DNA of 64,000 nt from Protonemura montana (Eukaryota > Arthropoda > Insecta > Plecoptera > Nemouridae): NCBI GenBank assembly GCA_947568835.1, contig OX387609.1, positions 16,761,208 through 16,825,207 of the forward strand, given 5' to 3'. This document shows, piece after piece, positions 5,677 through 43,800 of this stretch. A program made the position numbers and the translations under genes. How positions within the stretch are numbered: position 1 is the stretch's first letter; each line of letters starts with the position of its first letter. The notes under the pieces are model-generated. The model had not been told where the DNA came from, made no database searches, and was given only the letters and a program-made list of their open reading frames with translations.

Positions 5677-6369
5677 TGGTGGTCACCCATCCAATACCTG
5701 ACTCAGCGCAGTGTTGCTTAACTTCGGTGATCTCACGAGGGCCGGTGTTTCCAACACGCCAAACCGTTCGGTGGTCACCCATCCAATACCTGACTCAGCG
5801 CAATGTTGCTTAACTTCGGTGATCTCACGAGGGCCGGTGTTTCCAACACGCCAAACCGTTCGGTGGTCACCCATCCAATACCTGACTCAGCGCAATGTTG
5901 CTTAACTTCGGTGATCTCACGAGGGCCGGTGTTTCCAACACGCCAAACCGTTCGGTGGTCACCCATCCAATACCTGACTCAGCGCTGTGTTGCTTAACTT
6001 CGGTGATCTCACGAGGGCCGGTGTTTCTAAAACTCCAATCCGTTCGGTGGTCACCCATCCACTACCTGACCCAGCGCAGTGTTACTTAACTTTCATCCCT
6101 CCAACCTTTCTCCCGAATAGAACTGGTCATGTGTATGATGGTCACCCATCCAATACCTGACCCAGCGCAGTGTTGCTTAACTTTCATCCCTCCAACCTCT
6201 CTCCCGAACAGATCTGGTCATGTGTATGATGGTCACCCATCCAATACCAGACCCAGCGCAGTGTTGCTTAACTTTCATCCCTCCAACCTCTCTCCCGAAC
6301 AGAACTGTCCATGTGTATGATGGTCACCCATCTAATACCCGACCCAGCGCAGTGTTGCTTAACTTCGAG
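5677..6369 (-). repeat. 5S rRNA-derived tandem repeat, 91-92 bp units, about 8 copies
   Basis: Read on the - strand, the first four or five units (92 bp) match much of a 5S rRNA gene: GAAACACCGG, CTCGTGAGATCACCGAAG, TTAAGCAACACTGCGCTG and TATTGGATGGGTGACC. From about 6090 the units (91 bp) keep only the internal control region half (GTTAAGCAACACTGCGC to GGATGGGTGACC). The 5' half is replaced by an unrelated sequence containing GAGAGAGGTTGGAGGG. No unit has the complete roughly 120-nt 5S with complementary ends, so these are 5S-derived satellite units and not functional rRNA genes. Confidence 0.85.
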
Positions 6370-15600: not shown

Positions 15601-18600
15601 TTCGAGTCCACGTTAAGCATATACTTTTAGGATGTTCCCAGTAGTAAAATACTTTTTGCATTGCAAGCATTTGCAATTTAAATCAGATTTCAGGAAATCA
15701 AAGTCCGTTGCCACAAGAATTCTAGTTACTGAATGAGGGCGTTAGTATCGTATTCTTGCTATGTGTTCTAAGCCTGTCTAACGCCCCACCTCTGTCCCTA
15801 GTTCCACCAATGAGGCGCTAGTATCGTCTTGCTATGTGTTCCAAGCCTGTCTAACGCCCCCACCTCTGTCCCTAGTTCCACCTCTCGCCCATGGTGCTCG
15901 GCCTCATGTTCGTCATCAACGGTGGGACTTATGCACTGACTGCGCCTGCGTGGGGCTGGTTGTGCGACTCCAAGATTCACCCCAAGGTGGCGACGGTTGT
16001 AGGATGTGGTCTCATAATAGTGGGCTTCAGCCTCGTCGGTCCCGCCCCTTTCATACCCGGCGAAACGTGAGTAGAGCTTTAGATGGCCGTGACATTGTGA
16101 TCGGCATGTCTTCCAATGACAGCACAGTCCAACTCGACAGCAACTCTGACCCATCTAGTGGTACTAACTTACAAACAACAAAACATCTTCTCATTTCTTG
16201 TTGCCTTCTTGAGCTGATAGGTTCTTAGCAACCGATAAATAGATTCACTTGTCCCCGGGATCCAATATGCAGTGACTTTCACGGCAAAGCGGATCCGTTG
16301 CCCGATTAAACTTGTTGAAGATAATAAAACAGCAAGCAACTCGCTGACGTCACACAAGTCTCCTGGGTTAACACCAATCTCTGTCTGTTACCATGGTGAT
16401 CCTCGAGTACAGCATGCTCTGGCTCAGCATCGTGGGACTCGTGTGCCACGGGTTGGGAATCGCTGCGCAGCTCGTAGCATCCTTTACTGACGCACTGCGC
16501 ACATCAGTGTAAGTACCAACCTAACGTGGACCCAGCATTGGTACCAACCCAACCTGTCCCATCACGCCCTGCCTTGCCTGGACCCTACCCCCAAGTCCCA
16601 TGTCCTAGCCTTGCCTGGACCCAGCATTGGTACCAACCTAACCTGTCCCATCTCGCCCTGCCTCGCCTGGACCCTACCCCCAAGTCCCATGTCCTAGCCT
16701 TGCCTGGACCCAGCATTGGTACCAACCCAAACTGTCCCATCTCGCCCTGCCAAGCCTGGACCCAGCATTGGTAGGTACCAACCCAACCTGTCCCATCTCG
16801 CCCTGCCTTGCCTGGACCCAGCATTAGTACCAACCCAACCTGTCCCATCTCGCCCTGCCTTGCCTGGACCCTGCATTGGTACCAACCCAACCTGTCCCAT
16901 CACGCCCTGCCTTGCCTGGACCCTACCCCCTAGTCCCATGTCCCAGCCTTGCCTGGACCCTGCCCCCATGTCCCATGTCTCATGTCCCAGCCTTGCCTGG
17001 ACCCTGCCCTCATGTCCCATGTCCCAGCCTTGCCTGGACCCTGCCCCCAAGTCCCATGTCTCGTGTTCCAGCCTTGCCTGGACCCTGCCCCCAAGTCCCA
17101 TGTCCCATGTCCCAGTCTTGCCTAGACCCTGCCCCCATGTCCCATGTCTCGTGACCCAGTCTTGCCTGGACCCTGCCCCCAAGTCCCATGTCTCGTGTTC
17201 CAGCCTTGCCTGGACCCTGCCCCCATGTCCCATGTCTCGTGACCCAGTCTTGCCTGGACCCTGCCCCCAAGTCCCATGTCTCGTGTTCCAGCCTTGCCTG
17301 GACCCTGCCCCCATGTCCCATGTCTCGTGACCCAGTCTTGCCTGGACCCTGCCCCCATGTCCCATGTCTCGTGACCCAGTCTTGCCTGGACCCTGCCCCC
17401 ATGTCCCATGTCTCGTGACCCAGTCTTGCCTGGACCCCGCCCCCATGTCCCATGTCTCGTGACCCAGTCTTGCCTGGACCCTGCCCCCATGTCCCATGTC
17501 TCGTGACCCAGTCTTGCCTGGACCCTGCCCCCATGTCCCATGTCTCGTGACCCAGTCTTGCCTGGACCCTGCCCCCATGTCCCATGTCTCGTGACCCAGT
17601 CTTGCCTGGACCCTGCCCCCAAGTCCCATGTCTCGTGTTCCAGCCTTGCCTGGACCCTGCCCCCATGTCCCATGTCTCGTGACCCAGTCTTGCCTGGACC
17701 CTGCCCCCATGTCCCATGTCCCAGCCTTGCCTGGACCCTGCCCCCAAGTCCCATGTCTCGTGTTCCAGCCTTGCCTGGACCCTGCCCCCATGTCCCATGT
17801 CTCGTGACCCAGCCTTGCCTGGACCCTGCCCCCATGTCCCATGTCTCGTGACCCAGTCTTGCCTGGACCCTGCCCCCATGTCCCATGTCTCGTGACCCAG
17901 CCTTGCCTGGACCCTGCCCCCATGTCCCATGTCTCGTGACCCAGTCTTGCCTGGACCCTGCCCCCATGTCCCATGTCCCAGCCTTGCCTGGACCCTGCCC
18001 CCAAGTCCCATGTCTCGTGTTCCAGCCTTGCCTGGACCCTGCCCCCATGTCCCATGTCTCGTGACCCAGCCTTGCCTGGACCCTGCCCCCATGTCCCATG
18101 TCTCGTGACCCAGTCTTGCCTGGACCCTGCCCCCATGTCCCATGTCTCGTGTTCTAGCCTTGCCTGGACCCTGCCCCCATGTCCCATGTCTCGTGACCCA
18201 GTCTTGCCTGGACCCTGCCCCCAAGTCCCATGTCTCGTGTTCCAGCCTTGCCTGGACCCTGCCCCCATGTCCCATGTCTCGTGACCCAGTCTTGCCTGGA
18301 CCCTGCCCCCATGTCCCATGTCTCGTGACCCAGTCTTGCCTGGAACATGATGTGGGATATGAACCACACCATGGCTGTGCTTTTAGTGCCTACGGATTTC
18401 CCAATAACCTCGAGACGTACGGACTGATCTCGGGGCTATGGACTTCAACGTTCGCTCTCGGGGCTTTCGTCGGCCCCAGCGTCGCGGGCATCCTCTACGA
18501 TTCCATCGGCTTCCGTCACTCGACTATGTTCGTTGTTGTCCTTAACGCGATAGTGGTAAGTTGGAACCAACGGTGGCCATCCTATCACGAGGACAGCGCC

Positions 18601-20104
18601 AACACAGTATGTTAAAGTGACAAGGCTAAGCGGTGGCCGGTCCTTGGTGCTGTTAGACAGGAGCAGCCAACACAGTGTGTCAAAGTGACAAGGCTAAGCG
18701 GTGGCCGGTCCTTGGTGCTGTTGGACAGGAGCAGCCAACACAGTGTGTCAAAGTGACAAGGCTAAGCGGTGGCCGGTCCTTGGTGCTGTTGGACAGGAGC
18801 AGCCAACACAGTGTGTCAAAGTGACAAGGCTAAGCGGTGGCCGGTCCTTGGTGCTGTTGGACAGGAGCAGCAAACACAGTGTGTCAAAGTGACAAGGCTA
18901 AGCGGTGGCCGGTCCTTGGTGCTGTTGGACATGAGCAGCCAACACAGTGTGTCAAAGTGACAAGGCTAAGCGGTGGCCAGTCCTTGGTGCTGTTGGACAG
19001 GAGCAGCCAACACAGTGTGTCAAAGTGACAAGGCTAAGCGGTGGCCGGTCCTTGGTGCTGTTGGACAGGAGCAGCCAACACAGTGTGTCAAAGTGACAAG
19101 GCTAAGCGGTGGCCGGTCCTTGGTGCTGTTGGACAGGAGCAGCTAACACAGTGTGTCAAAGTGACAAGGCTAAGCGGTGGCCGGTCCTTGGTGCTGTTGG
19201 ACAGGAGCAGCCAACACAGTGTGTCAAATGACAAGGCTAAGCGGTGGCCGGTCCTTGGTGCTGTTGGACAGGAGCAGCCAACACAGTGTGTCAAAGTGAC
19301 AAGGCTAAGCGGTGGCCAGTCCTTGGTGCTGTTGGACAGGAGCAGCTAACACAGTGTGTCAAAGTGACAAGGCTAAGCGGTGGCCTGTCCTTGGTGCTGT
19401 TGGACAGGAGCAGCCAACACAGTGTGTCAAAGTGACAAGGCTAAGCGGTGGCCGGTCCTTGGTGCTGTTGGACAGCAGCAGCTAACTCAGTGTGTCAAAG
19501 AGTTTGTTCTCGGTGCTGTTTATGATGCTGTTTACGCTTGTTCCTGACAGGGTTTCGTCGTGTTGTTGTTCATCTGCTGTGGACAGCGCGCGCCAAGTTT
19601 CAAGGCCGCCCCGGGTGGCGACGATAGAGTGCCGATGGTTGGCGAGGAGGGTCGTCGTGCAGGCACCGTCTCCCCCTCTACATCCGGCATCTCGATAGAA
19701 CGCCCTCCTGGCATGTCCGGTATTATTGCCACCAACAGCTACAAGAATCGCCTTGGCACGTGGCACCGGAAAGAAGGCGGCAAGGCGATTGCAGGTGCGA
19801 TTTAATGGTTGACATTTCTCAACTCAAATATACTGTGAAACTGACTAGATTCAGTGGTAACCTTGGAGTTCCCTGACAATCTTGCCAAGCTGTGCGGTCC
19901 TAACAGTGGTACTCATTAAACAAGTGAACCATTTGCTAACCCACCAGTGTTCAAAACATACTTGATACTGACATCAATCAGGTGTCAATGAAGCATTAAC
20001 CTAGAAATGACTCAAGTGACTTGTTTATACTTGTTTGCGCAGGTCCGTACAGTGCGAGCTACGGGAGCTTGGAGACGCGTGGATTCCTGGAGAGCGTTAC
20101 CTAG
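6538..20104 (+). CDS. SLC18B1: SLC18B1-like MFS transporter, gene 1 (11 coding exons, 496 aa)
   Basis: This is a predicted 12-helix major facilitator of the SLC18B1 branch, which in vertebrates is described as a vesicular polyamine exchanger; substrate here is inferred. Exons: 6538-6645, 10876-10971, 11544-11617, 12156-12303, 13956-14142, 14508-14623, 15876-16066, 16413-16508, 18387-18555, 19551-19794, 20043-20104. All introns are GT-AG and phases join without a stop. Landmarks are [10 protein letters not shown] (29-38 region), [10 protein letters not shown] (about 46-55), MFS motif A (SPFYGQ then NRIGPK, residues 62-75), [20 protein letters not shown] (exon 9) and a polar tail of about 100 residues. 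The start at 6538 has a strong context (AAGATGG) and aligns with gene 2. An in-frame ATG at 6478 would add 20 residues. Introns 1, 3, 4, 6, 8 and 9 are inflated by tandem repeats. The paralogue on the - strand lies 3' to 3'. Confidence 0.9.
6725..6966. repeat. 40-bp tandem repeat, 6 near-identical copies
   Basis: The unit starts GCGATTGCTTCAATAATC and ends CCACGCTAGGTGT. Copies begin at 6725, 6765, 6805, 6845, 6885 and 6925 with almost no divergence, so it is recent. It lies in gene 1 intron 1. Confidence 0.95.
6967..8072. other. Gene 1 intron 1, unique part
   Basis: About 1.1 kb without a recognised gene, RNA or repeat apart from short AGTAGTAAGTATTA runs near 7130. Confidence 0.55.
8073..9540 (-). 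repeat. 5S rRNA-like 91-bp tandem array, about 16 copies
   Basis: On the - strand each unit carries the 5S internal control region (GTTAAGCAACACTGCGC, then GGATGGGTGACC) joined to the sequence containing CATGACCAGTTCTG. The last unit (9520-9545) again shows the CGAAGTTAAGC form. Units vary by point changes and A-runs at the junction. The array lies in gene 1 intron 1, antisense to the gene. Confidence 0.88.
9654..10827. repeat. ACCAGT hexanucleotide microsatellite of about 1.17 kb
   Basis: About 195 copies of ACCAGT with scattered single-base variants (ACAAGT, ATCAGT, ACTAGT), denser near the left end. The right 280 bp are nearly perfect. It ends 48 bp before exon 2 of gene 1. The long open frames across it are a consequence of the 6-bp period. 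Confidence 0.98.
10876..10971 (+). CDS. SLC18B1: Gene 1 coding exon 2
   Basis: Acceptor TCGCACAG, 32 codons, donor CAC|GTGAGT, phase 0. It encodes [12 protein letters not shown] and helix 2, ending in the SPFYG half of MFS motif A. Confidence 0.92.
10972..11543. other. Gene 1 intron 2
   Basis: 572 bp of unique sequence. An acceptor-like TTTTCCAG at 11282-11289 is followed by an open stretch, but no family residues are expected between exons 2 and 3, so I do not call an exon. Confidence 0.6.
11544..11617 (+). CDS. SLC18B1: Gene 1 coding exon 3
   Basis: Acceptor TTGACCGCAG, 74 nt, donor TTTGG|GTGAGT, ends in phase 2. It encodes the rest of motif A (NRIGPK) and helix 3 ([11 protein letters not shown]). 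Confidence 0.92.
11618..11936. other. Gene 1 intron 3, unique part
   Basis: About 320 bp of AT-rich intron without recognised features, upstream of the 20-bp array. Confidence 0.6.
11937..12134. repeat. 20-bp tandem repeat next to the exon 4 acceptor
   Basis: About ten copies of CCCCTGACCTTGAGCTGCAA, two of them 19 bp long. It ends about 20 nt before the exon 4 acceptor of gene 1, so it covers the likely branch-point region. Confidence 0.95.
12156..12303 (+). CDS. SLC18B1: Gene 1 coding exon 4
   Basis: Acceptor CTCGGCAG, 148 nt, donor TTC|GTAAGT, phase 0. It encodes helix 4 and the loop ending FPDNVAITF. The acceptor directly follows a 20-bp array and the donor is followed within 4 nt by the 68-bp array. 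Confidence 0.92.
12308..13936 (+). repeat. 68-bp tandem array A, about 24 copies (gene 1 intron 4)
   Basis: Units contain GGTCCTTGGTGCTGTTGG, CAGGAGCAGCCAACACAG and CAAAGTGACAAGGCTAAGCG. The array starts at donor position +5 and ends about 20 nt before the exon 5 acceptor, so it makes up nearly the whole intron. The same family fills intron 9. Confidence 0.96.
13956..14142 (+). CDS. SLC18B1: Gene 1 coding exon 5
   Basis: Acceptor TTTGACAG, 187 nt, donor GCG|GTGAGA, ends in phase 1. It encodes [19 protein letters not shown], helices 5-6 and the start of the central cytoplasmic loop. In gene 2 this exon is split in two. Confidence 0.92.
14143..14507. other. Gene 1 intron 5
   Basis: 365 bp, unique, no feature recognised beyond its splice sites. 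Confidence 0.6.
14508..14623 (+). CDS. SLC18B1: Gene 1 coding exon 6
   Basis: Acceptor ATCAACAG, 116 nt, donor CAG|GTTGGT, phase 0. It encodes helix 7 and ends with ATLEPHLRQ, shared with gene 2. Confidence 0.9.
14820..15612 (+). repeat. tRNA-like 52-bp tandem array, about 15 copies (gene 1 intron 6)
   Basis: Each unit has a perfect tRNA A box (TAGCTCAATTGG), a D-arm continuation GTTAGAGCA, an anticodon-arm-like CACC...GGTG stem, and a B-box-like GGTCCAAGT or GGTTCAAGT fused to the next unit. Only the last unit (15598-15608) has a perfect B box, GGTTCGAGTCC. Acceptor stems are absent and the anticodon loop lacks U33, so these are not functional tRNA genes. They are tandem tRNA-derived units as in SINE heads. 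Confidence 0.85.
15613..15875. repeat. Gene 1 intron 6 end with duplicated 3' splice site
   Basis: A segment of about 74 bp including TCTTGCTATGTGTTC, CTAACGCCCC and CTGTCCCTAG is present twice. The first copy ends in an acceptor at 15801, the second in the true acceptor at 15875. Use of the first would read F-H-Q-stop. Confidence 0.8.
15876..16066 (+). CDS. SLC18B1: Gene 1 coding exon 7
   Basis: Acceptor CTGTCCCTAG, 191 nt, donor AAAC|GTGAGT, ends in phase 2. It encodes helices 8-9 ([17 protein letters not shown]). A duplicated decoy acceptor lies 74 nt upstream. Confidence 0.9.
16067..16412. other. Gene 1 intron 7
   Basis: 346 bp, unique, nothing recognised. Confidence 0.6.
16413..16508 (+). 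CDS. SLC18B1: Gene 1 coding exon 8
   Basis: Acceptor CGAGTACAG, 96 nt, donor CAGT|GTAAGT, ends in phase 2. It encodes helix 10 ([14 protein letters not shown]) and FTDALRTSV. The length matches gene 2 exactly. Confidence 0.88.
16525..18345 (+). repeat. Composite minisatellite of gene 1 intron 8
   Basis: 16525-16920 holds units with CAGCATTGGTACCAACC and TGTCCCATCACGCCC. 16925-18345 holds about 32 units of 42-44 bp built on GCCTTGCCTGGACCCTGCC and CCATGTCCCATGTCTCGTG. The array starts within 20 nt of the exon 8 donor, and its first units echo the donor context GTACCAACC. A related family sits in gene 2 intron 1 (44165-45235). Confidence 0.93.
18387..18555 (+). CDS. SLC18B1: Gene 1 coding exon 9
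   Basis: Acceptor GTGCTTTTAG, 169 nt, donor GTG|GTAAGT, phase 0. It encodes the highly conserved [19 protein letters not shown] and [10 protein letters not shown] segments around helices 11-12. Confidence 0.92.
18600..19500 (+). repeat. 68-bp tandem array B, about 13 copies (gene 1 intron 9)
   Basis: Same unit as the intron 4 array (GGTCCTTGGTGCTGTTGG, CAAAGTGACAAGGCTAAGCG), same orientation. It starts about 40 nt after the exon 9 donor and ends about 50 nt before the exon 10 acceptor. Confidence 0.96.
19551..19794 (+). CDS. SLC18B1: Gene 1 coding exon 10
   Basis: Acceptor TTCCTGACAG, 244 nt, donor GCAG|GTGCGA, ends in phase 1. It completes the last helix ([10 protein letters not shown]) and encodes a polar Ser/Gly/Arg-rich cytoplasmic tail with no recognised domain. 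Confidence 0.85.
20043..20104 (+). CDS. SLC18B1: Gene 1 coding exon 11, with stop
   Basis: Acceptor TTTGCGCAG, then 19 further codons ([10 protein letters not shown] to LESVT) and TAG at 20102-20104. A polyadenylation signal follows 56 nt after the stop. Confidence 0.85.
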
Positions 20105-25800: not shown

Positions 25801-28800
25801 TTGGGTATGGAATGAGGTGTTTGGGTGTGGAATGAGGTGTTGGGGGATGGAATGAGGTGTTTGGGTGTGGAATGAGGTGTTGGGGGATGGAATGAGGTGT
25901 TTGGGTATGGAATGAGGTGTTTGGGTATGGAATGAGGTGTTTGGGTGTGGAATGAGGTGTTGGGGGATGGAATGAGGTGTTTGGGTGTGGAATGAGGTGT
26001 TGGGGGATGGAATGAGGTGTTTGGGTATGGAATGAGGTGTTTGGGTGTGGAATGAGGTGTTGGGGGATGGAATGAGGTGTTGGGGGATGGAATGAGGTGT
26101 TGGGTGATGGAATGAGGTGTTTGGGTGTGGAATGAGGTGTTGGGGGATGGAATGAGGTGTTGGGGAATGCAATGAGGTGTTGGGGGATGGAATGAGGTGT
26201 TTGGGTGTGGAATGAGGTGTTGGGGGATGCAATGAGGTGTTTGGGTGTGGAATGAGGTGTTTGGGGATGGAATGAGGTGTTTGGGTGTGGAATGAGGTGT
26301 TTGGGTGTATATGTAGGGACTAACCAGCAGCAGATGAGTGGCGATCACGAATAATGTGCCGACTCTGAAGCCGACGAGGTCATACAGGATGCCGGCGACG
26401 CTCGGTCCGATGAAAGCGCCGAGCGCAAGAAACGACGCCCACAGACCCGAGATGACGCCGTACGTGGTGATGTCGTCGGGAAGACCGCATTCACTGTCGC
26501 CATGGCAACCGGTTACAAATACACAAACAAGCTTGTGAAATAATCTCGCTAGAGAACAGAGTTAGCCGAGCACAATTGTTTGTAAGTGAAACAAATGTGA
26601 TCGATGTTTGCTTGAACAAGTCAAATCCATGCACAACTGCAGAATGAATTCATGGGTGGGCATGAACTTTCTGCAGTGGGTTCGAAAAAAAGATTTTAAA
26701 TTGGATTTATATTGGAACTTAAAGACGACCGTTTTTTTTTTCATGTTTTGTCAAAAAAGTCCGATTGCCTGACATTTTTTAACACAATAATTGATAAATT
26801 AACCGCAAAACGTACCTAATTAAATGTAAAATCCAATAACCGAGGTAAAATATATTTGTTTTTTCAATTATTATCTACCAAATAAATTGAGAATCTAAAA
26901 CTTATTATAAAACCTAAAGATACGTTTTACCTGGACGTACGATCGATGAGATTAATAAACCAAACTTCCCAAACCTGAAATAACCTAACCTAACCTAACC
27001 TAACCTAACCTAGCCTAACCTAACCTAACCTAACCTAACCTAGCCTAACCTAACCTAACCTAACCTAGCCTAACCTAACCTAACCTAACCTAACCTAGCC
27101 TAACCTAACCTAACCTAACCTAACCTAACCTAACCTAACCTAACCTAACCTAACCTAACCTAACCTAACCTAACCTAACCTAACCTAACCTAACTTGACC
27201 TAACCTAACCTAACCTAGCATGACCTAACCTGAACTAACCTAACCTAACCTAACCTGACATAACCTAACCTAACCTAACCTGACCTAACCTTACCTAACC
27301 TAACCTAACCTAACCTAACCTAACCTAACCTGACCTAACCTGACCCAACCTAACCTAACCCTACCTAACCTAACCTAGCCTAACCTATCATAACCTAGCC
27401 TGACCTAACCCGACCTAACCTAACCTAACCTGACCTAACCTAACCTAACCTAACCTAACATATCATGACCTACCCTAACCCAACCTAACCTTACCCTACC
27501 TAACCTAACCTAGCCTAACCTATCATAACCTAGCCTAACCTAACCTCACCTAACCTAACCTTACCTAACCTAACCTAACCTGAGCTAACCTGACCTAACG
27601 TACCATAACCCAACCTAACCTAACATAACCTAACCTAACCTAACCTGACCTAACCTGACCTAACCTACCCTAACCCAACCTAACCTAACCTGACCTAACC
27701 TCGCGTGTGTTGCTCTAACCAATTAAGCTACTCGAACCCCTATCTCCACCTGTCGCGGGTATTGCTCTAACCAATTGAGCTACTTGGACCCCAATCTCCA
27801 CCTGTCGCGGGTATTGCTCTAACCAATTGAGCTACTTGGACCCCGATCTCCACCTGTCGTGGGTGTTGCTCTAACCAATTGAGCTATTTGGACCCCGATC
27901 TCCACCTTTCGCGGGTGTTGCTCTAACCAATTGAGCTATTTGGACCCCGATCTCCACCTGTCGCGGGTGTTGCTCTAACCAATTGAGCTACTTGGACCCC
28001 GATCTCCACCTGTCATGGGTGTTGCTCTAACCAATTGAGCTATTTGGACCCCGATCTCCACCTTTCGCGGGTGTTGCTCTAACCAATTGAGCTACTTGGA
28101 TCCCGATCTCCACCTGTCGCGGGTGTTGCTCTAACCAATTGAGCTACTTGGACACAGATCTCCACCTGTCGCGGGTGTTGCTCTAACCAATTGAGCTACT
28201 TGGATCCCGATCTCCACCTGTCGCGGGTGTTTCTCTAACCAATTGAGCTACTTGGACACAGATCTCCACCTGTCGCGGGTGTTGCTCTAACCAATTTAGC
28301 TACTTGGACCCCGATCTCCACCTGTCGCGGGTGTTGCTCTAACCAATTGAGCTACTTGGACCCCGATCTCCACCTGTCGCGGGTGTTGCTCTAACCAATT
28401 GAGCTACTTGGACCCCGATCTCCACCTGTCGCGGGTGTTGCTCTAACCAATTGAGCTACTTGGACACAGATCTCCACCTGTCGCGGGTGTTGCTCTCACC
28501 AATTTAGCTACTTGGACCCCGATCTCCACCTGTCGCGGGTGTTGCTCTAACCAATTGAGCTATTTGGACCCCGATCTCCACCTGTCGCGGGTGTTGCTCT
28601 AACCAATTGAGCTACTTGACCCCGATCTCCACCTGTCGCGGGTGTTGCTCTAACCAATTGAGCTACTTGGACACTGGCTCTTGAGACGATTCTGGTGTAT
28701 TTGATGAGAATGACGTTTACAGTGTTCATAACCATGTGTATGATGGTCACCCATCCAATACCTGACTCAGCGCAGTGTTGTTTAACTTTCATCCTTCCAA

Positions 28801-31800
28801 CCTCTCTCCCGAACAGAACTGGTCATGTGTATGATGGTCACCCATCCAATACCTGACCCAGCGCAGTGTTGCTTAACTTCGGTAAACAAGGTTACGACTT
28901 ACACGGCCGTGCGGATTCCGTCAATGAAAGCTGGCACCAAAAGACACGCGTTGCTGAGTCCTTGAATCACAAGACCAACACAGCACATCCAGAGCGTCCT
29001 GAAAACAGAAGATAAGAGCTCTGATAAGCAGTGATAATAAATGATAAGCCGTGATAAGCGCGATGAGCAGTGATAAATCGTGATAAGCCGTGATGAGCAA
29101 TGACAAGCCGTGATAAGCCGTGATAAGCCGTGATAAGCCGTGATAAGCCGTGATAAGCCGTGATAAGCCGTGATAAGCCGTGATAAGCCGTGACCAGGGA
29201 CCAATGAATTTATGACATAAGTTTGTGGCGAGTAAAAACTATTTCAACTGGGTTTTCAATGCTAAGTAAATAACAACAAAATTTCCCAACGTTTCGTAAC
29301 TTGTACCTGTTACTTTATCAAGGGTAAAAGCAGTCCTGACAATTTTCCAATAACAAAAGAACCACACAAAATTATAACAATTACCAAGTTCAAGCTTCCT
29401 AAATACATCTAAACAAAATAATCAGGGTCAATAACTTATTTCGTAACTACTTATTAAATCATTATCATTTATTTCTTAATCCACCTTCCAAATATTTTCT
29501 TCTGGATTCTTTGAGCTGATTTCTCCTCACTGAAATTCACTATTACATTATTCTGTAGTAAAATTGTTCCCCAAGCTCTATCAAGTTAAATACTATCATC
29601 TCTATTCAAGTTATTGGCTTCTTTAAGGTCAATATAAGGCGGGTTGCTGTCTCACGATGGAAGGTTGGTGTAAGGCGGGTTGCTGACTTACGATGGAAGG
29701 TTGGTGTAAGGCGGGTTGCTGTCTCACGATGGAAGGTTGGTGCAAGGCGGGTTGCTGTCTCACGATGGAAGGTTGGTGTAAGGCGGGTTGCTGTCTCACG
29801 ATGGAAGGTTGGTGTAAGGCGGGTTGCTGTCTTACGATGGAAGGTTGGTGTAAGGCGGGTTGCTGTCTCACGATGGAAGGTTGGTGTAAGGCGGGTTGCT
29901 GTCTCACGATGGAAGGTTGGTGTAAGGCGGGTTGCTGTCTCACGATGGAAGGTTGGTGTAAGGCGGATTGCTGTCTCACGATGGAAGGTTGGTGTAAGGC
30001 GGGTTGCTGTCTCACGATGGAAGGTTGGTGTAAGGCGGGTTGCTGTCTTACGATGGAAGGTTGGTGTAAGGCGGGTTGCTGACTTACGATGGAAGGTTGG
30101 TGTAAGGCGGGTTGCTGTCTCACGATGGAAGGTTGGTGTAAGGCGGGTTGCTTACTTACGATGGAAGGTTGGTGTAAGGCAGCGGCCCGACGAGAGTAAA
30201 ACTCATCACGGACAAGATGGCGCCCACTACGATGACTTTGCGTGGAGAGACCCACGTGTCACACATTTTGCCCACCAGGGGCGCTGTCATTGCGTACGTT
30301 CCTCCGCTGATAATGAACATTGCGCCCGTCTCCAAGGTCGTCAGATCAAACTAAACAGCCACAAAATCAAAAAAAATTTAAAGTTTTATTAGAGTGGGAG
30401 CTTACTCAGGTCTATTGGAGTGGGAGCTTACTCAGGTCTATTGGAGTGGGTGCTTACTCAGGTCTATAGGAGTGGAAGTTTACTCAGGTCTATTGGAGTG
30501 GGAGCTTACTAAGGTCTATTGGAGTGGGAGCTTACTCAGGTCTTTTGGAGTGGGAGCTTACTCAGGTCTATTGGAGTGGAAGTTTACTCAGGTCTATTGG
30601 AGTGGGAGCTTACTCAGGTCTATTGGAGTGGGAGCTTACTCAGGTCTATTGGAGTGGGAGCTTACTCAGGTCTATTGGAGTGGGAGCTTACTCAGGTCTA
30701 TTGGAGTGGGAGCTTACTCAGGTCTATAGGAGTGGGAGCTTACTCAGGTCTATTGGAGTGGGAGGTTACTCAGGTCTATTGAAGTGGAAGCTTACTCAGG
30801 TCTATTGGAGTGGGTGCTTACTCAGGTCTATTGGAGTGGGTGCTTACTCAGGTCTATTGGAGTGGGAGCTTACTCAGGTCTATTGGAGTGGGTGCTTACT
30901 CAGGTCTATTGGAGTGGGAGCTTACTCAGGTATATTGGAGTGGGAGCTTACTCAGGTCTATTGGAGTGGGAGCTTACTCAGGTCTATTGGAGTGGGAGCT
31001 TACTCAGGTCTATTGGAGTGGAAGCTTACTCAGGTCTATTGGAGTGGGAGCTTACTCAGGTCTATTGGAGTGGGTGCTTACTCAGGTCTATTGGAGTGGG
31101 TGCTTACTCAGGTCTATTGGAGTGGGAGCTTACTCAGGTCTATTGGAGTGGGAGCTTACTCAGGTCTATAGGAGTGGGAGCTTACTCAGGTCTATAGGAG
31201 TGGGAGCTTACTCAGGTCTATTGGAGTGGAAGCTTACTCAGGTCTATTGGAGTGGAAGCTTACTCAGGTCTATTGGAGTGGAAGTTTACTCAGGTCTATT
31301 GGAGTGGGAGCTTACTCAGGTCTATTGGAGTGGGAGCTTACTCAGGTCTATTGGAGTGGGAGCTTACTCAGGTCTATTGGAGTGGGAGCTTACTCAGGTC
31401 TATTAGAGTGGGAGCTTACTCAGGTCTATTGGAGTGGGAGCTTACTCAGGTCTATTGGAGTAGGAGCTTACTCAGGTCTATAGGAGTGGGAGCTTACTCA
31501 GGTCTATTGGAGTGGGAGCTTACTCAGGTCTATTGGAGTGGGAGCTTACTCAGGTCTATTGAAGCGGGAGCTTACTCAGTTCTATTGAAGTGGGAGCTTA
31601 CTCAGGTCTATTGGAGTGGGAGCTTACTCAGGTCTATTGGAGTGGGAGCTTACTTAGGTCTATTGGAGTGGGAGCTTACTCAGGACTATTGGAGTGGGAG
31701 CTTACTCAGGTCTATTGGAGTGGGAGCTTACTTAGGTCTATAGGAGTGGGAGCTTACTTAGGTCTATAGGAGTGGGAGCTTACTTAGGTCTATTGGAGTG

Positions 31801-34800
31801 GGAGCTCACTCAGGTCTATTGGAGTGGGAGCTTACTCAGGGCTATTGGAGTGGGAGCTTACTCAAGTCTATTGGAGCGGGAGCTTACTCAGGTCTATTGG
31901 AGTGGGAGCTTACTCAGGTCTATTGGAGTGGGAGCTTACTCAGGTCTATTGGAGTGGGAGCTTACTCAGGTCTATTGGAGTGGGAGCTTACTCAGGTATA
32001 TTAGAGTGGGAGCTTACTCAGGTATATTAGAGTGGGAGCTTACTCAGGTCTATAGGAGTGGGAGCTTACTCAGGTATATTGGAGTGGGAGCTTACTCAGG
32101 TCTATAGGAGTGGGAGCTTACTCAGGTATATTGGAGTGGGAGCTTACTCAGGTCTATTGGAGTGGGAGCTTACTCAGGTATATTAGAGTGGGAGCTTACT
32201 CAGGTATATTAGAGTGGGAGCTTACTCAGGTCTATAGGAGTGGGAGCTTACTCAGGTATATTGGAGTGGGAGCTTACTCAGGTCTATAGGAGTTGGAGCT
32301 TACTCAGGTATATTAGAGTGGGAGCGTACTCAGGTCTATTGGAGCGGGAGCTTACTCAGGTCTATTGGAGTGGGAGCTTACTCAGGTCTATTGGAGTGGG
32401 AGCTTACTCAGGTCTATTGGAGTGGAAGCTTACTCAGGTCTATTGGAGTGGGAGCTTACTCAGGTCTATTGGAGTGGAAGCTTACTCAGGTCTATTGGAG
32501 TGGAAGCTTACTCAGGTCTATTGAAGTGGGAGCTTACTCAGGTCTTTTGGAGTGGGAGGTTACTCAGGTCTATTGGAGTGGGAGCTTACTCAGGTCTATT
32601 GGAGTGGGAGCTTACTCAGGTCTATTGGAGTGGGAGCTTACTCAGGTCTTTTGGAGTGGGAGCTTACTCAGGTCTTTTGGAGTGGGAGCTTACTCAGGTC
32701 TATTGGAGTGGGAGCTTACTCAGGTCTATTGGAGTGGGAGCTTACTCAGGTCTATTGGAGTGGGAGCTTACTCAGGTCTTTTGGAGTGGGAGCTTACTCA
32801 GGTCTATTGGAGTGGGAGCTTACTCAGGTCTATTGGAGTGGGAGCTTACTCAGGTCTATTGGAGTGGGAGCTTACTCAGGTCTATTGGAGTGGGAGCTTA
32901 CTCAGGTCTATTGGAGTGGGAGCTTACTCAGGTCTATTGGAGTAGGAGCTTACACGTATATTGGAGTGGGAGCTTACTCAGGTCTATTGGAGTGGCAGCT
33001 TACTCAGGTCTATTGGAGTGGGAGCTTACTCAGGTCTATTGGAGCGGGAGCTTACTCAGGTCTATTGAAGTGGGAGCTTACTCAGGTCTATTGAAGTGGG
33101 AGCTTACTCAGGTCTATTGGAGTAGGAGCTTACACGTATATTGGAGTGGGAGCTTACTCAGGTCTATTGGAGTGGCAGCTTACTCAGGTCTATTGGAGTG
33201 GGAGCTTACTCAGGTCTATTGGAGTGGAAGCTTACTCAGGTCTATTGGAGTGGGAGCTTACTCAGGTATATTAGAGTGGGAGCTTACTCAGGTATATTAG
33301 AGTGGGAGCTTACTCAGGTCTATAGGAGTGGGAGCTTACTCAGGTATATTGGAGTGGGAGCTTACTCAGGTCTATAGGAGTGGGAGCTTACTCAGGTATA
33401 TTGGAGTGGGAGCTTACTCAGGTCTATTGGAGTGGGAGCTTACTCAGGTATATTAGAGTGGGAGCTTACTCAGGTATATTAGAGTGGGAGCTTACTCAGG
33501 TCTATAGGAGTGGGAGCTTACTCAGGTATATTGGAGTGGGAGCTTACTCAGGTCTATAGGAGTTGGAGCTTACTCAGGTATATTAGAGTGGGAGCGTACT
33601 CAGGTCTATTGGAGCGGGAGCTTACTCAGGTCTATTGGAGTGGGAGCTTACTCAGGTCTATTGGAGTGGGAGCTTACTCAGGTCTATTGGAGTGGAAGCT
33701 TACTCAGGTCTATTGGAGTGGAAGCTTACTCAGGTCTATTGAAGTGGGAGCTTACTCAGGTCTTTTGGAGTGGGAGCTTACTCAGGTCTATTGGAGTGGG
33801 AGCTTACTCAGGTCTATTGGAGTGGGAGCTTACTCAGGTCTATTGGAGTGGGAGCTTACTCAGGTCTATTGGAGTGGGAGCTTACTCAGTTCTTTTGGAG
33901 TGGGAGCTTACTCAGGTCTATTGGAGTGGGAGCTTACTCAGGTCTATTGGAGTGGGAGCTTACTCAGGTCTATTGGAGTGGGAGCTTACTCAGGTCTATT
34001 GGAGTGGGAGCTTACTCAGGTCTATTGGAGTGGGAGCTTACTCAGGTCTATTGGAGTAGGAGCTTACTCAGGTCTATTGGAGTGGCAGCTTACTCAGGTC
34101 TATTGGAGTGGGAGCTTACTCAGGTCTATTGGAGTGGCAGCTTACTCAGGTCTATTGGAGTGGGAGCTTACTCAGGTCTATTGGAGCGGGAGCTTACTCA
34201 GGTCTATTGAAGTGGGAGCTTACTCAGGTCTATTGAAGTGGGAGCTTACTCAGGTCTATTGGAGTAGGAGCTTACACGTATATTGGAGTGGGAGCTTACT
34301 CAGGTTTATTGGAGTGGCATCTTACTCAGGTCTATTGGAGTGGGAGCTTACTCAGGTCTATTGGAGTGGGAGCTTACTCAGGTATATTTCTAAGTCTACT
34401 GGATACAGCTTATTGCCCAAACCAATTGTGTGATTGCGACAAAATAAAAACATGGCTTCTCATCACACAATTGCCATGAGATTGACTTTTTTTGGAATCG
34501 GTAATATTATATCCTCTCATGGTTACAAGCGTTGTGGTTTATTAGATTGTCTAGAGGTTGTTGTAATTGTTGAGTTTGTTTTCTTGCCTGTCTGAGATGA
34601 GGCTCAAGTGTAGCTGCGTAGAAGCCGGTCCCAATAGCTGCTGATGCTACGCTCAGAGAATCCAGCAACACCGGGGTTAGACGCAGGAACGACCACAGCT
34701 GAGCTGAAACACGAAGGTTAAGTCACGTTTAGAAGAGAGTTAAGCAACACTGCGCTGGGTCAGGTATTGGATGGGTGACCATCATACACATGACCAGTTC

Positions 34801-37800
34801 TGTTCGGGAGAGAGGTTGGAGGGATGAAAGTTAAGCAACACTGCGCTGGGTCAGGTATTGGATGGGTGACCATCATACACATGACCAGATCTGTTTGGGA
34901 GTGAGGTTGGAGGGATGAAAGTTAAGCAACACTGCGCTGGGTCAGGTATTGGATGGGTGACCATCATACACATGACCAGTTCTGTTCGGGAGAGAGGTTG
35001 GAGGGATGAAAGTTAAGCTTCGCTGCTCTGGGTCAGGTATTGGATGGGTGGCCATCATACACATGACCAGTTTTGTTCGGGAGAGAGGTTGGAGGGATGA
35101 AAGTTAAGCAACACTGCGCTGGGTCAGGTATTTTATTTTTATTTTATTTTTTATTTAAGTCAAAAAGTTCTCATACTGTAGGCATACCTATGCAGCAGAA
35201 CGCACAGACTATTTTTAAGAATTAAAACTAAGTACTATACTAAAACACAATGACATACAATGTTGACATTCTTATGAACTAATAATAATAATAATAAAGA
35301 TAGTAATAATAATAATACTACTGATATAATAATGATAAAAATAAAAACGAGAATAATGATAGAAATAACAACACTTTTTTACAACTTTATATTTGGACAT
35401 CTAATTGCTGATTTGAATTCGTCCACAGTATAAAACACATTTTTTACGAGGAAATTTTTTAATCTAGATTTGAACTTATTTACAGCTAATTGTTTAATAT
35501 CTTTAGGTAATAGATTAAATAAAAGAAGGCCTGTCGGTTTCACTTGTTTTTTTAATACAGTTAATTTTTCTCGAGGTAGTTTGAAGTTGTTTTTATTTCT
35601 AGTCCTATGGTTATGGTCATGTGCAGAAAAATGGTCCTGATTATTTTTTATAAAGGTTAGAAGTTGATAAATGAAAAGATTAGGCATTGTCATTATCTGT
35701 AGTAATTCCAAATATTTGCTACAGGATTTTTTAGGTTTTAAAATTAGCATAGTACGGATTACTTTTTTTTGGAGTGTGAATATTTTTTTGTGATTTTGAG
35801 AATTACCCCAGAACATTATACCATATCTCATATGGGACTCAAATAGGCCATGGTAAGTCATTTTAAGGGTTTGTTTAGGAACTATTTTTTTGAGTATTCG
35901 GATTGCATAAATTTGTTTAGAGAGTTTATTTTGAAGTGATTCTATTTGGTGTTTGCAGTTTAGTTGCTCATCTATTTCTATTCCTAAAAATGGTGCCCGG
36001 TCAGTTATTTCAATATTTTCCCCATTTGCCGTTACCACAGGTAAAGGTTGGGATAGGGAAATATTACCTTTTATTTTGAATTTTATAGTCTGAGTTTTTT
36101 TTAGAGTTTAGGGTTAATTGATTATATTTAAGCCACTCGCAGAGTTCCTCCATTGCTTTAGTAGCTTTATCCTCCGTATTTTTTAATAGCTGATCGGCAA
36201 CTAAAAGACTAGTGTCGTCAGCAAACATTGTTAATTTAGCGTTAGTTAAATTTATAGGTAAATCATTAATATAAATAAGGAACAATAGGGGGCCCAGAGT
36301 ACTCCCTTGGGGGATTCCTTGAACAATAGTTAATTCGTTAGAGTAAAAGTTTTTGATTGTATTATTAGAGTCTACACCATTTATAATTACTGACTGTTTT
36401 CTGTTACTTAGATAAGATTTAAACCAATTGTTAGCTGTTCCTCTAATTCCATAATGGTATAGTTTTAATAATAATAATTCGTGGTTGACACAGTCAAAAG
36501 CTTTACTTAAGTCACATAGAATCCCAATTACTTGATTTTTTTCACTTAATGCCATAGTCACGTCTTCCATAAAATTAAAAATTGCTGTTTCAGTAGACTT
36601 ATTTTTTAAAAATCCATGCTGTTCATTAGTAAGTATATTAAATTTTGTTATGAATCCTATAAGACGTTTAAACATTAGTTTTTCTAGTATTTTTGAAAAC
36701 GGATTTAGTAGTGAGATCGGCCTGTAGTTACCAATAACGTTTTTCGCTCCTTTTTTATGCAGCGGGAGGACTTTGGCAATTTTAAATAAATCAGGGAACG
36801 TTCCAGTCGCAAATGACTCATTACAAATTTGAAGTATTGGTTCTAAAAGGTATGGAGAGAAATTTTTTATTATTTTAGATGGTAGATCATTAAGTCCCGA
36901 TGTATTTTTTTGTTCATTTATAATTTGTCTTACCTCCGTATACGTAGCAGGAAACAAGAACATTGATTGTTTATTTGCGGGATACTTCTGAACTTTAATA
37001 ATCGCTTGTTTTGGATCAAATTTAGGTATGCTGCTATCAAGTTTCGCACAGGTTGATAAAATATTCATTAAATTCATTTGCAATTTCTGTTGGTGTATTT
37101 AGTATTTTTCCATTGATTGTTATTTCTGTAATCCTACTATTAGTTCTAGTTGTTCTACCTATTTCTTTATTTACTAAATTCCAAGAGGTTTTCATGATAT
37201 TTTTAGATTGTTTCAATTCCTTGTGAATGTGTTGTCTCTTGGCTGTTTTAATTGTTTTCCTTAGGACGCATGAGTATGTTTTAACATGACGACTCCAGAC
37301 CGAGCTATTGACTTCTTTTCCTATAATTATTAGGCTTCGTTTGTGTTTGCAAGAATTTCTGATACCTTTTGTGATCCATGCGTTTCTTCTACGTATATTA
37401 GGATGAAGTCTCCTGAGTGGATAAGCTTTATTGAAGCTAGAATTAAGGACATTTGAAAAATGATAAGTTTTATTGTTCACATTATCCCGTTGAGTCACTG
37501 TATCCCAACTTTCGTTCATCATAAGTGCTGCCATCTTTTTATCATTAAAAGCAAGGTAAAACCGTTTCTCAATGTAATTAATAGGCTCCCTAAAAACGTC
37601 ATTGTTATCATTTGAATTTAAAACGTCCAGTGAAAGAATAATTGCTTTATGGTCAGACAGTCCATTTTCTTTAACTTTGAGTTCTAAATTTGTTAGTTCC
37701 AGGTTCGTTAAAATATTGTCTATACAGGTAGCCGAAGAATACGTGACTCTAGTTGGTTGATTAATAGTTAGTTTGATATTAAAAGAGTTTAAAAGTGAGC

Positions 37801-40800
37801 GTAACTTATGTTTGTTTTGACAGTTTCCAAGCATATTCAGATAGATATCTGTACTGATTAGAATTTTTCTTGTTTTATTCTCCTGCGTTATCATGGTTAA
37901 TAACACTTCAAGTTTATTTATAAATTTTTTAAAGCAAGCACTAGGTGATCGGTAGATGCATAGAATAACTGTATTCAGTTTCTCGAGCTCGATTGCTGAA
38001 CACTCAAAGACTTTTCTTCGCTCAATCTTACAATATCCAGTCTAGTTGAAAATTCAATCTTATCTCTAACAAAAATACAAGTTCCTCCATGAGAGTAAAT
38101 TTCTCGTGAGAATATTGATGCAAGTTTAAAGTTTGGTAAGACAATGCAATCTGCTTCATTCTTTTTTAGCCAAATGCTCTGTCAAAGTGATAATATTTAC
38201 ATCTAAGTTTAAATCATTGATTGCTTTATCTAATTCATTAATTTTAGAACGAATCGAACGGATATTTTGATAAAATATTGTGATACGGGATTTGGTTTTG
38301 CTTACATTACTATTTGATGGAAAATCGCTATTTGTGTCGTCGTAGTTTGTCCACTGTGTACCTGCTAGCGTACCTTTTCCACCAGGCCGGCGCTCAATTG
38401 TTATGGATTCACTCACACCTGTACATACGTCTTTGATGAGCGCGCTATTTCAGCTGGAGATGTCCTAGCGTGGTACCTGCTGCTGCGAGATAACGGTTGT
38501 CTGCAGCGAGCTGTCAGTCGTCTTCGCCTCTCTGATTCTTTGACTTTGTCTTGTCAGGTTATTGATACAGGAAACTGGGCCCAGCTGGGGTGGCTTGGGT
38601 TGGTAGGCTGGCCTGATCTTGGTTTCGCGGCTACTACGTTCACAGCTGCTATTGTAGCTGCTGCTGCTGATGATGGCTGCGTCTGCTGCTGATGTTGTCG
38701 GTAGCTGCTGTATCTGCTGCTGCTGATGATATTGATGAGGTGGCTGTTGATACTGCTGCAGGAGTTGCTGCTGCTGCGGCTGCGGCTGGTGATGTTGCTG
38801 CTGCGGTTGTTGCTGTTGCTGTTGGTGCTGAGGCTGCTGCGGTTGTTGCTGTTGCTGTTGGTGCTGAGGCTGCTGCGGTTGTTGCTGTTGCTATTGGTGC
38901 TGAGGCTGCTGCGGTTGTTGCTGTAGCTGTTGTGGTTGGTGCTGAGGCTGCTGCGGTTGGTGCTGTAGCTGTTGTGGTTGTTGCTGTAGCTGTTGTGGTT
39001 GGTGCTGAGGCTGCTGCGGTTGGTGCTGTAGCTGTTGTGGTTGTTGCTGTAGCTGTTGTGGTTGTTGCTGTAGCTGTTGTGGTTGGTGCTGAGGCTGCTG
39101 CGGTTGGTGCTGTAGCTGTTGTGGTTGTTGCTGTAGCTGTTGTGGTTGGTGCTGAGGCTGCTGCGGTTGGTGCTGTAGCTGTTGTGGTTGGTGCTGAGGC
39201 TGCTGCGGTTGTTGCTGTAGCTGTTGTGGTTGGTGCTGAGGCTGCTGCGGTTGGTGCTGTAGCTGTTGTGGTTGTTGCTGTAGCTGTTGTGGTTGGTGCT
39301 GAGGCTGCTGCGGTTGGTGCTGTAGCTGTTGTGGTTGTTGCTGTAGCTGTTGTGGTTGTTGCTGTAGCTGTTGTGGTTGGTGCTGAGGCTGCTGCGGTTG
39401 GTGCTGTAGCTGTTGTGGTTGTTGCTGTAGCTGTTGTGGTTGGTGCTGTAGCTGTTGTGGTTGGTGCTGAGGCTGCTGCGGTTGTTGCTGTAGCTGTTGT
39501 GGTTGGTGCTGAGGCTGCTGCGGTTGTTGCTGTAGCTGTTGTGGTTGGTGCTGAGGCTGCTGCGGTTGGTGCTGTAGCTGTTGTGGTTGTTGCTGTAGCT
39601 GTTGTGGTTGGTGCTGAGGCTGCTGCGGTTGGTGCTGTAGCTGTTGTGGTTGGTGCTGAGGCTGCTGCGGTTGTTGCTGTTGCTGTTGGTGTTGCTGTTG
39701 GTGCTGAGGCTGCTGCGGTTGGTGCTGTAGCTGTTGTGGTTGTTGCTGTAGCTGTTGTGGTTGGTGCTGAGGCTGCTGCGGTTGGTGCTGTAGCTGTTGC
39801 GGTTGTTGCTGTAGCTGTTGTGGTTGGTGCTGAGGCTGCTGCGGTTGTTGCTGTAGCTGTTGTGGTTGGTGCTGAGGCTGCTGCGGTTGGTGCTGTAGCT
39901 GTTGTGGTTGTTGCTGTAGCTGTTGCGGTTGGTGCTGTAGCTGTTGTGGTTGGTGCTGAGGCTGCTGCGGTTGGTGCTGTAGCTGTTGTGGTTGTTGCTG
40001 TAGCTGTTGTGGTTGTTGCTGTAGCTGTTGTGGTTGGTGCTGAGGCTGCTGCTGGTGATGTTGCTGCTGCGGTTGTAGCTGTTGTGGTTGGTGCTGAGGC
40101 TGCTGGTGATGTTGCTGCTGCGGTTGGTGCTGTAGATGTTGTGGTTGGTGCTGAGGCTGCTGCGGTTGTTGCTGTTGCTGTTGGTGCTGAGGCTGCTGCG
40201 GTTGTTGCTGTTGCTGTTGGTGCTGAGGCTGCTGCGGTTGGTGCTGTAGCTGTTGTGGTTGGTGCTGAGGCTGCTGCGGTTGTTGCTGTTGCTGTTGGTG
40301 TTGCTGTTGGTGCTGAGGCTGCTGCGGTTGGTGCTGTAGCTGTTGTGGTTGGTGCTGAGGCTGCTGCGGTTGGTGCTGTAGCTGTTGTGGTTGGTGCTGA
40401 GGCTGCTGCGGTTGTTGCTGTTGCTGTTGCTGTTGCTGTTAGTGCTGAGGCTGCTGCGGTTGGTGCTGTAGCTGTTGTGGTTGGTGCTGAGGCTGCTGCG
40501 GTTGGTGCTGTAGCTGTTGTGGTTGGTGCTGAGGCTGCTGCGGTTGTTGCTGTTGCTGTTGGTGCTGAGGCTGCTGCGGTTGGTGCTGTAGCTGTTGTAA
40601 TTGGTGCTGAGGCTGCTGCGGTTGTTGCTGTTGCTGTTGGTGCTGAGGCTGCTGCGGTTGTAGCTGTTGTGGTTGGTGCTGAGGCTGCTGCGGTTGGTGC
40701 TGTAGCTGTTGTAATTGGTGCTGAGGCTGCTGCGGTTGGTGCTGTAGATGTTGTGGTTGGTGCTGAGGCTGCTGCGGTTGTTGCTGTTGCTGTTGGTGCT

Positions 40801-43800
40801 GAGGCTGCTGCGGTTGTTGCTGTTGCTGTTGGTGCTGAGGCTGCTGCGGTTGGTGCTGTAGCTGTTGTGGTTGGTGCTGAGGCTGCTGCTGGTGATGTTG
40901 CTGCTGCGGTTGTTGCTGTAGCTGTTGTGGTTGGTGCTGAGGCTGCTGCTGCTGTTGAAGTCGACGGCTTCTGCTGTTGTTGGCTGCAATTGTTGTCATC
41001 TGCTGTTTCTTTGTGTCGTCGCGTTCTTGATAGGCTGGCACAATTTGTCTCGAGTCCGCATCCACACAAAAGACTTTCCCGTTTACTTTTAATTTGTCAA
41101 ATGTTACTACCGCATCATGGTTATCTGCGCGGGCGGCCACCATTTCAGTTATAAGGATCCTCCTGTCTTCTAACACTCGTTGAGAAAAGTCTTCATGGAT
41201 AAAAAATTCACTGCGTTTCAGAAGTTTTTTGCTTCTAAACACTTGATCACGTTTTTTAAAACTTCTAAACTTAACAACAATCGCTCGTGGATGGCTTGAT
41301 CTGTTTATTCGGTGGGATCTCTCGATATCGTCAGGCGATATTTCTACATTCAACATTTCCCAAGCAAAGTTAATTATCAAATTCTCACAGTCGATCCACG
41401 TTTCTTTTCCGTTTCCTTCGTTCAGTCCTCGAAACACAAGGTTATTCCTACGGCTTTGGTTCTCCAGATAATCCTCTTTTTTAGAGATCACTATTAGTTT
41501 ATTTGTTAAGTCAGAATTTTGCGACGTTAAAGATTGAATTGTGACTTCCATATCGTTTATCTTTGTTTCCAAAAAATTCACTTTCGATTCTACACTCGAC
41601 AGTTTAGAATGTATCTCCAGCACATTAACTTCAACTGAGTCCAATTTTTCCACAACTGAGTCCAATTTTTCTACTTTAGCCATTATGGCATCGAGCTTAT
41701 CGTCGGTAGTTGAAGTAGGACCCGGGTTTAATTCTACGCACCCGATTATTAATAATATCGCGATAACTGCTGCGCACAAAACACTATTCACTGTACACAC
41801 TGATTCTCCGTCGCTAGCTATCGTTGCCCGGCGAGACACACGCACTTTGCCGGCCTACGAGCCGATCCTAGCCCGCCAGCTTACGACGTCAATCATTGCT
41901 GGAATTTCAAAATAGCTCCTACCTGGACAACCACCCTCGATCGCTGGGCCATCATACACATGACCAGTTCTGTTCGGTAGAGGTTGGAGGGATGAAAGTT
42001 AAGCAACACTGCGCTGGGTCAGGTATTGGATGGGTGGCCATCATACACATGACCAGTTCTGTTCAGGAGAGAGGTTGGAGGGATGAAAGTTAAGCAACAC
42101 TGCGCTGGGTCAGGTATTGGATGGGTGACCATCATACACATGACCAGTTCTGTTCAGGAGAGAGGTTGGAGGGATGAAAGTTAAGCAACACTGCGCTGGG
42201 TCAGGTATTGGATGGGTGACCATCATACACATGACCAGTTCTGTTTGGGAGAGAGGTTGGAGGGATGAAAGTTAAGCAACACTGCACTGGGTCAGGTATT
42301 GGATGGGTGACCATCATACACATGACCAGTTCTGTTTGGGAGAGAGGTTGGAGGGATGAAAGTTAAGCAACACTGCACTGGGTCAGGTATTGGATGGGTG
42401 ACCATCATACACATGACCAGTTCTGTTCGGGAGAGAGGTTGGAGGGATGAAAGTTAAGCAACACTGCGCTGGGTCAGGTATTGGATGGGTGGCCATCATA
42501 CACATGACCAGTTCTGTTCGGGAGAGAGGTTGGAGGGATCTCGGAGCTACCAACCTTGCGGCCTGGGCTCGGCTAATCCATCTTCCAGCGTAGGCAGGAT
42601 GTAGCAGATGAGAGATCCAACCAGGATCAGGAAGACTCCTACCGTCATGAACGGGACCATGAATCCACCAAGCTGTGAGAAGAACAGTTGAGTTTCACTT
42701 GGAAGTTGAGGCAAGATTATTGATTATTGGTGATAAAGAAGGCCGTTTGATTTGACATGTTAAGAGCAAAAAACAAGAAAAACAGAGTAGAATCGTTGAC
42801 TACGTCACGCCAGTGACTGGATTGGCAACTGTCCTTCTGAAGGACAATTGAAGGCAGGTTAAAGAGGGCTGTGTTTGTGACTTACCGTGAAGAGCAGAGC
42901 CCCGACAGTTGGTCCGATGATGTAGCCGAGACCATAGAGGACTTCAAGAGTTGCCTTGAAACAACAACTTAAGTCATCAAACTTACCAATGTTCAACGCT
43001 GCAGCAGCGCGGAAACATTGAGGTTGTTAGTCAGGGAGATGGAAGGGCAAGACAGACAAAACTAAACTGCAAATACTGCCATCTATCAGAAGAAGTTATA
43101 AGTTTGTAAGCGAGTGTAGCCCAAGTGTTTCATCGTTGTGTGCAGGTTCTAGGTAGAGAAACAATGTCAATGTTACAGTCTCTGCGTGAAAGATGGCCGC
43201 CAAATGACTACCTTACCGACAAAAATGCAGAGTACCGGAACATCACGTTAAGTGGAGCCACTGTCGTGTGAAATTTTAATTTCGATATTTCTCGTAGGTT
43301 ACTCACTTTTTAATATCGTTACGTGTATATCAATTGTTGAGGTAAACATTGATGGAGATTTTCTAAGCATGAAAAGTTTCAAAAGTGAGTTAACCTACGA
43401 GAAATATCAAAATTTAAATTTCATACGACAGTGGCTCCACTTAACGTGATGTTCCGGTACTCTGCATTTTTGTCGGTAAGGCAGTCATTTGGCGGCCATC
43501 TTTCACGCAGAGACTGTAACATTGACGTTGAAACTCTACCTAGAACCTGCACTCAACGGTTTCACGTTGAAATATCTGTGAGAGTTTGATCTGTGACCCT
43601 GGGCTAAAGTTGACAAGCAATAAAATGATGCGCTATTGAATAAAGCAACTCCAGGTGTTGAACTGGGTGATGCAGACTTACAAAGGTTGTGGCCATGCGT
43701 CCCGGGAACTCGCTGGCGATGATAGAGAACGAAGCAGTGACCGCCGCAGAGGCACCGAGACTCTCGACAATTCGCACGGCAAACGAGAGTCCGATAAAAC

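Follow-up and report, generated by a model that had tools for sequence, protein, structure and literature searches.

What does it mean that exon 7 of an SLC18B1-like gene ends inside a tandem array built from its own end and its own 5' splice site? An earlier note on this locus offered three ideas, namely a splice-site decoy, a driver of nonsense-mediated decay (NMD) and an exon-intron boundary that seeded a satellite. The window, which is the whole 64,000-nucleotide stretch of DNA analysed here, lies on contig 12 at 16.76–16.83 Mb of 18.23 Mb in a genome of 258 Mb and 34 contigs. It contains two opposed paralogous genes, each with nine exons that could be matched to those of the other, and a third, more distant paralogue (gene 3) is located ~250 kb outside it. 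Exon ends in these genes were placed by homology and consensus alone, and the coordinates are collected in Table 1. Pfam MFS_1 (PF07690) matched both joined pieces of gene 2 over the curated cut-off, and SLC18B1 (PDB 9d7u) was at the top of eight matches of gene 2 with solved structures (E = 3.3e-54). By both of these sequence matches, the host gene is classed as an SLC18B1-like MFS transporter. Exon 7 of gene 2 matched that of gene 1 at 47% over 59 amino acids, and its split codon TC/G is completed by the first base of gene 2 exon 8. Two other features were seen in these genes. The exon 6 donor reads CAG/GCAAG in gene 2 (window 34587) and in gene 3, a likely GC-AG intron, and its gene 1 counterpart reads CAG/GTTGG. 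Intron 5 of gene 2 contains three long, reverse-transcriptase-like ORFs (window 38041..35379, minus strand), which looked LINE-like by eye from the translation.

Table 1. Coordinates of the genes, exons and repeats under discussion (window positions unless another stretch is named; a slash marks a splice junction).
Feature	Position	Strand	Description and basis
Gene 1	6.5 to 18.6 kb	plus	9 exons matched to gene 2
Gene 2	48.3 to 26.3 kb	minus	SLC18B1-like; 9 exons matched to gene 1
Exon 7 of gene 2	30160..30350	minus	AG acceptor, GT donor, open frame, phase 2, homology
36-bp array	29635..30180 (546 bp)	minus	TRF: period 36, 15.2 copies, 96% match
Intron 7 of gene 2	28999..30159 (1161 bp)	minus	~60% tandem repeat; junctions from homology and consensus
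10-bp array	29022..29193	minus	Acceptor end of intron 7, stops 23 bases before the acceptor; TRF
Exon 8 of gene 2	28903..28998	minus	Homology to gene 1 exon 8; acceptor TTTTCAG/GACG
Exon 7 of gene 1	15876..16066	plus	Paralogue of gene 2 exon 7; phase same
Gene 1 acceptor repeat	15732..15882	plus	2 copies of 73–74 bp across the exon 7 acceptor; TRF
55-bp array at exon 9 acceptor of gene 3	L015 3964..4985 = C12 16504963-16505984	minus	Junction search, in-register reading

The junction between exon 7 and intron 7 of gene 2 reads CCTTCCATC on the exon side and GTAAGTAAGC on the intron side. The array unit comprises 21 exon-derived bases (the exonic part being 30180..30160) and 15 intron-derived bases. 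The in-register copy table held 15 full copies, that is the exon's own and 14 further ones, followed by a diverged partial copy. TRF, this copy table and the junction search all bore out the observation that the exon end and intron start are repeated about 15 times after exon 7. The copies shared a mean pairwise identity of 96.6% (minimum 88.9%) and varied in columns -16 (one copy), +3, +6, +7 and +13 (one copy), with one of the 21 exonic positions varying, in one copy. A GT donor-like site was present in all 14 full copies downstream of the authentic donor. The two forms described before were both found, GTGAGA in ten copies and GTAAGT in two, and the remaining two carry GTAAGA. The reading frame through the array confirmed a stop in every copy. 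The partial last copy starts with GCCTTA, as the unit does; it may be a copy that was truncated, or it may be the short direct repeat through which slippage first became possible. Tandem arrays are often mis-sized in assemblies, and an artefact here would mean a true array of different length or a spurious expansion. An aberrantly assembled repeat of the mirage type discussed below has been noted in the amphioxus draft (PMC3087553, in the part available), but at 546 bp the present array is a short one, and variants tell its copies apart; an artefact is extremely improbable.

The strength of these donor-like sites was estimated with a model of U1 pairing, which used a fixed register against the U1 5' end. 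The authentic donor GTAAGT (30154..30159, minus strand, followed by AAGC) was predicted to pair at -7.3 kcal/mol and was the strongest of the 15 copies, ranking 14 of 27 assigned donors, whereas 12 of the 14 downstream copies reached -4.6 or -4.7 kcal/mol and the other two -5.7. The description of the array as about 15 equivalent donors does not hold for predicted U1 pairing. In the same model, only one of the 27 assigned donors scored weaker than the commonest array donor. Pairing was lost at +7 in all 14 copies and at +6 in 12 of them, and column +7 sets the authentic copy apart from all the others. The weakening is confined to these two columns, and the change at +3 was without clear effect in the U1 model. 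Because the authentic donor keeps seven U1-paired intronic bases and the copies have lost +7 and mostly +6, the authentic donor should win. Furthermore, none of the 47 other GT sites in intron 7 equalled it in this model; the nearest rival, at +853 and outside the array, was predicted at -7.1 kcal/mol. The weaker pairing of the copies could reflect selection against strong decoys, as far as the model goes, or it may result from drift spread by homogenisation or from the chance spread of one variant.

These values bear directly on the possibility of a regulatory decoy array, in which the repeated donors would compete for U1, or would sometimes be used, leading to a stop and to NMD that lowers the transcript. 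Every copy does offer a GT donor-like site with an in-frame stop on read-through, and the human IFI6 minisatellite, in an interferon-induced transcript, has been reported to carry multiple donor sites (as cited in the available parts of PMC3618361 and PMC2572611). Intron 7 contains 18 GT sites at -4.6 kcal/mol or below (15.5 per kb), about twice the density of such sites in the other 23 introns of the three genes pooled (7.48 per kb). The set of 24 introns excludes E5-E6 of gene 1, where the donor is unassigned, and includes E7-E9 of gene 3, which skips the unfound exon 8. This enrichment is genuine, but it places intron 7 third of the 24, behind gene 2 intron 8 (60.2 per kb) and gene 3 intron 3 (31.1 per kb). 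A splice decoy calls for copies no weaker than the authentic donor, and in the U1 model the copies stayed at -4.6 to -5.7 against -7.3 kcal/mol. The stop in each copy is also automatic, since in a phase-2 intron any GTRAG donor gives xxG TRA, which reads TAA or TGA, and it therefore does not point to a designed NMD switch. In addition, the paralogous introns have no array at their donor ends. With weaker copies, two denser introns and no GT site equal to the authentic donor, neither a decoy nor an NMD function found positive support, and we regard a regulatory role as quite improbable.

The paralogues were compared for the order in which junction and array arose. In gene 1 exon 7, the number of codons after the GP motif and the phase are those of gene 2; in gene 3 exon 7, there is one codon more after this motif and the phase is the same. 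No array was found anywhere in gene 1 intron 7 (346 bp). Downstream of exon 7 in gene 3, the first array appeared only 918 bases in, and exon 8 was not found there. As the paralogues share the phase and have no array at the donor end, the junction probably predates the array, which would have arisen in gene 2. When two units were used as DNA queries against the whole genome, seven matches came back, all seven in the gene 2 array; such counts are lower bounds, as simple repeats and very common words were skipped. The reverse order, in which the array came first and invaded the exon, overwriting its end, could appeal to the near-homogeneous array that takes in the exon end and to the poor conservation of the exon's last codons between paralogues. 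It would leave unexplained a donor position and phase that agree with gene 1 exactly and with gene 3 within one codon, and a unit that the genome search found nowhere else. We consider this order very improbable.

Whether other splice junctions in the family are spanned by repeats was examined in 52 junctions (27 donors and 25 acceptors) of the three paralogous genes. For each junction, copies of the central 30 bases were sought on the gene's own strand over 12 kb, or as far as the sequence extended, with a threshold of at least 24/30. Tandem copies spanned three junctions, which were the exon 7 donor of gene 2 (14 further copies), the exon 9 acceptor of gene 3 and the exon 7 acceptor of gene 1. 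The remaining 49 gave no copy of their central 30 bases under these settings. When the gene 2 donor junction was letter-shuffled 200 times, the best match within 20 kb was 22/30, against 27–29/30 for the four real copies listed. The gene 1 repeat extends seven bases into exon 7, and its extra copy at -74 matched at 24/30, exactly the threshold. The gene 3 array repeats the polypyrimidine tract, the AG and the first bases of exon 9. Read in register, it shows 17 copies upstream of the junction and part of an 18th, the eighth onward being shifted by one base; the junction search also counted 17, a number that includes the true junction itself. Copies -3 and -7 are identical to the authentic acceptor (30/30), and for the three upstream acceptors that were translated, the frame met a stop inside the unit. 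These upstream acceptors are not visibly weaker, so keeping the authentic site strongest is not a general rule in this family. The unit confined to its locus, the paralogues without the array and two other junctions with unrelated repeats together supported the idea of an exon-intron boundary as a satellite seed.

The array lies in surroundings rich in tandem repeats. These made up 56% of the window. One adjoining flank was 61% tandem repeat and the other 24%, and the two stretches that hold the third paralogue reached 45% and 32%; five 10-kb samples taken at 5 Mb of contigs 1–5 contained 0.4–3.2%. In 3-kb samples along contig 12, the share was 0% at 2 Mb and 2.8% at 8 Mb, rose to 41% at 13 Mb, was 14% at 15.5 Mb and reached 99.9% at 17.5 Mb. 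The array is ~1.4 Mb from the contig 12 end, which carries (GGTTA)n, i.e. TTAGG repeats of the kind typical of arthropods, and the C1 end carries (GGTTT)n, or TTTGG repeats. At their starts, contigs 1 and 4 were 100% tandem repeat, contig 5 was 29% and contig 3 was 0% over 3 kb, and contigs 2 and 12 began with sequence that was mostly or wholly N. In the human genome, minisatellite VNTRs show enrichment close to the ends of chromosomes, according to the part of PMC7608644 available. Within the three genes, 18 of the 24 introns contained arrays, and five of these introns were filled to 93–98%. Array edges were also scored for hugging splice sites (within 25 bases or beyond), with six at donors and six at acceptors against ~3.2 expected for each; at P ~0.05 each, this tendency was too weak and was set aside.

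Several other repeat families were observed in and around the window. A 91-bp array family that includes part of 5S rRNA occurs at window 5678..6365, 8074..9535, 34738..35132 and 41949..42539 and again in stretches L016, L021, L023 and L048; two window stretches scored as 5S rRNA in Rfam. A 52-bp array (GTCCAAGTAGCTCAATTGGTTAGAGC...) is present in both orientations (window 14820..15601 and 27701..28672) and also in L015 and L016; its tRNA likeness was judged by eye, and ARAGORN called no tRNA in the window. A 68-bp array was found at window 12308..13933, in gene 1 intron 4, where it runs from +5 past the donor to 22 bases short of the acceptor, at 18598..19500, just past gene 1 exon 9, and once more ~3.8 Mb away (L047 1071..1611). 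Internal TAACC repeats are located at window 26981..27701.

We hold it to be very probable that the array at gene 2 exon 7 is a mirage-type minisatellite, that is a junction-spanning tandem duplication which expanded and was tolerated as the exon-proximal donor stays the strongest. A segment across the exon 7/intron 7 boundary would have been duplicated in tandem, and the duplicate would have expanded to 15 copies through slippage or unequal exchange in this minisatellite-rich region. Since the added copies follow the original donor and are intronic while the first donor is used, the expansion would leave the protein unaltered. We infer how the duplication came about, that the first donor is used faithfully and that the array has no function. 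Among the three ideas raised earlier, the boundary-seeded satellite is the simplest and the best, ahead of the decoy and of NMD. A bolder proposal, which we think rather unlikely, is that in this genome the splice junctions of genes in a distal region rich in minisatellites seed such repeats again and again, at either end of the intron and perhaps outside cephalochordates, as at 3 of 52 junctions of this one family, and that selection weakens the duplicated donors, leaving the original donor to win. If it were true, introns would grow from their own borders, and stages from the duplication to the filled intron could be seen. As a natural test case, the locus bears both on the spliceosome's choice between tandem donors and on how introns may grow from a splice border.

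The closest known systems are the amphioxus "mirages", tandem repeats across exon-intron boundaries, which the available parts of PMC3087553 and PMC3902484 describe in Adh3 (units of 10–72 bp), in the globins BflGb6 and BflGb9 and in troponin C, with imperfect mirage-like repeats in PGBD5. According to the same parts, 5' and 3' boundaries are both duplicated in the globin mirages, the regular mRNA is left undisturbed in Adh3, globin and troponin C, and the clusters show length instability and may supply new introns (PMC3087553, PMC3902484). The gene 2 array has both anatomical marks of a mirage, as its units span the boundary and its copies contain splice signals; as far as those accounts go, units spanning the boundary and AG/GT signals in many copies are common to both, and the 36-bp unit falls within the Adh3 range, although the gene is a different one. 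In the partly available literature found, the name "mirage" is limited to lancelet genes, and if the present host is not a lancelet, the kind would extend to another animal group. A genome of 258 Mb and TTAGG repeats at a contig end are not what would be expected of Branchiostoma. The 12-bp unit minisatellite of human IFI6 (6-16), of Turri et al. 1995, reportedly has array donors that are used, whereas the gene 2 copies are predicted to be weaker than their authentic donor. In human paralogues, internal tandem repeats located at exon-intron boundaries have been reported to alter introns and transcripts (PMC2812944, in the part available). They share with the gene 2 array the position of a minisatellite at an exon-intron boundary of duplicated genes; on that partial account they differ in altering transcripts, whereas the gene 2 transcript would be unchanged if the first donor is used. 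Thus, the gene 2 array is a repeat of an already described kind and requires no new mechanism. It is a clean, high-copy, boundary-spanning minisatellite with array-free paralogous donor ends, and what it adds to the known cases is that its family also has counterparts at acceptors and that its copies are predicted to be weak.
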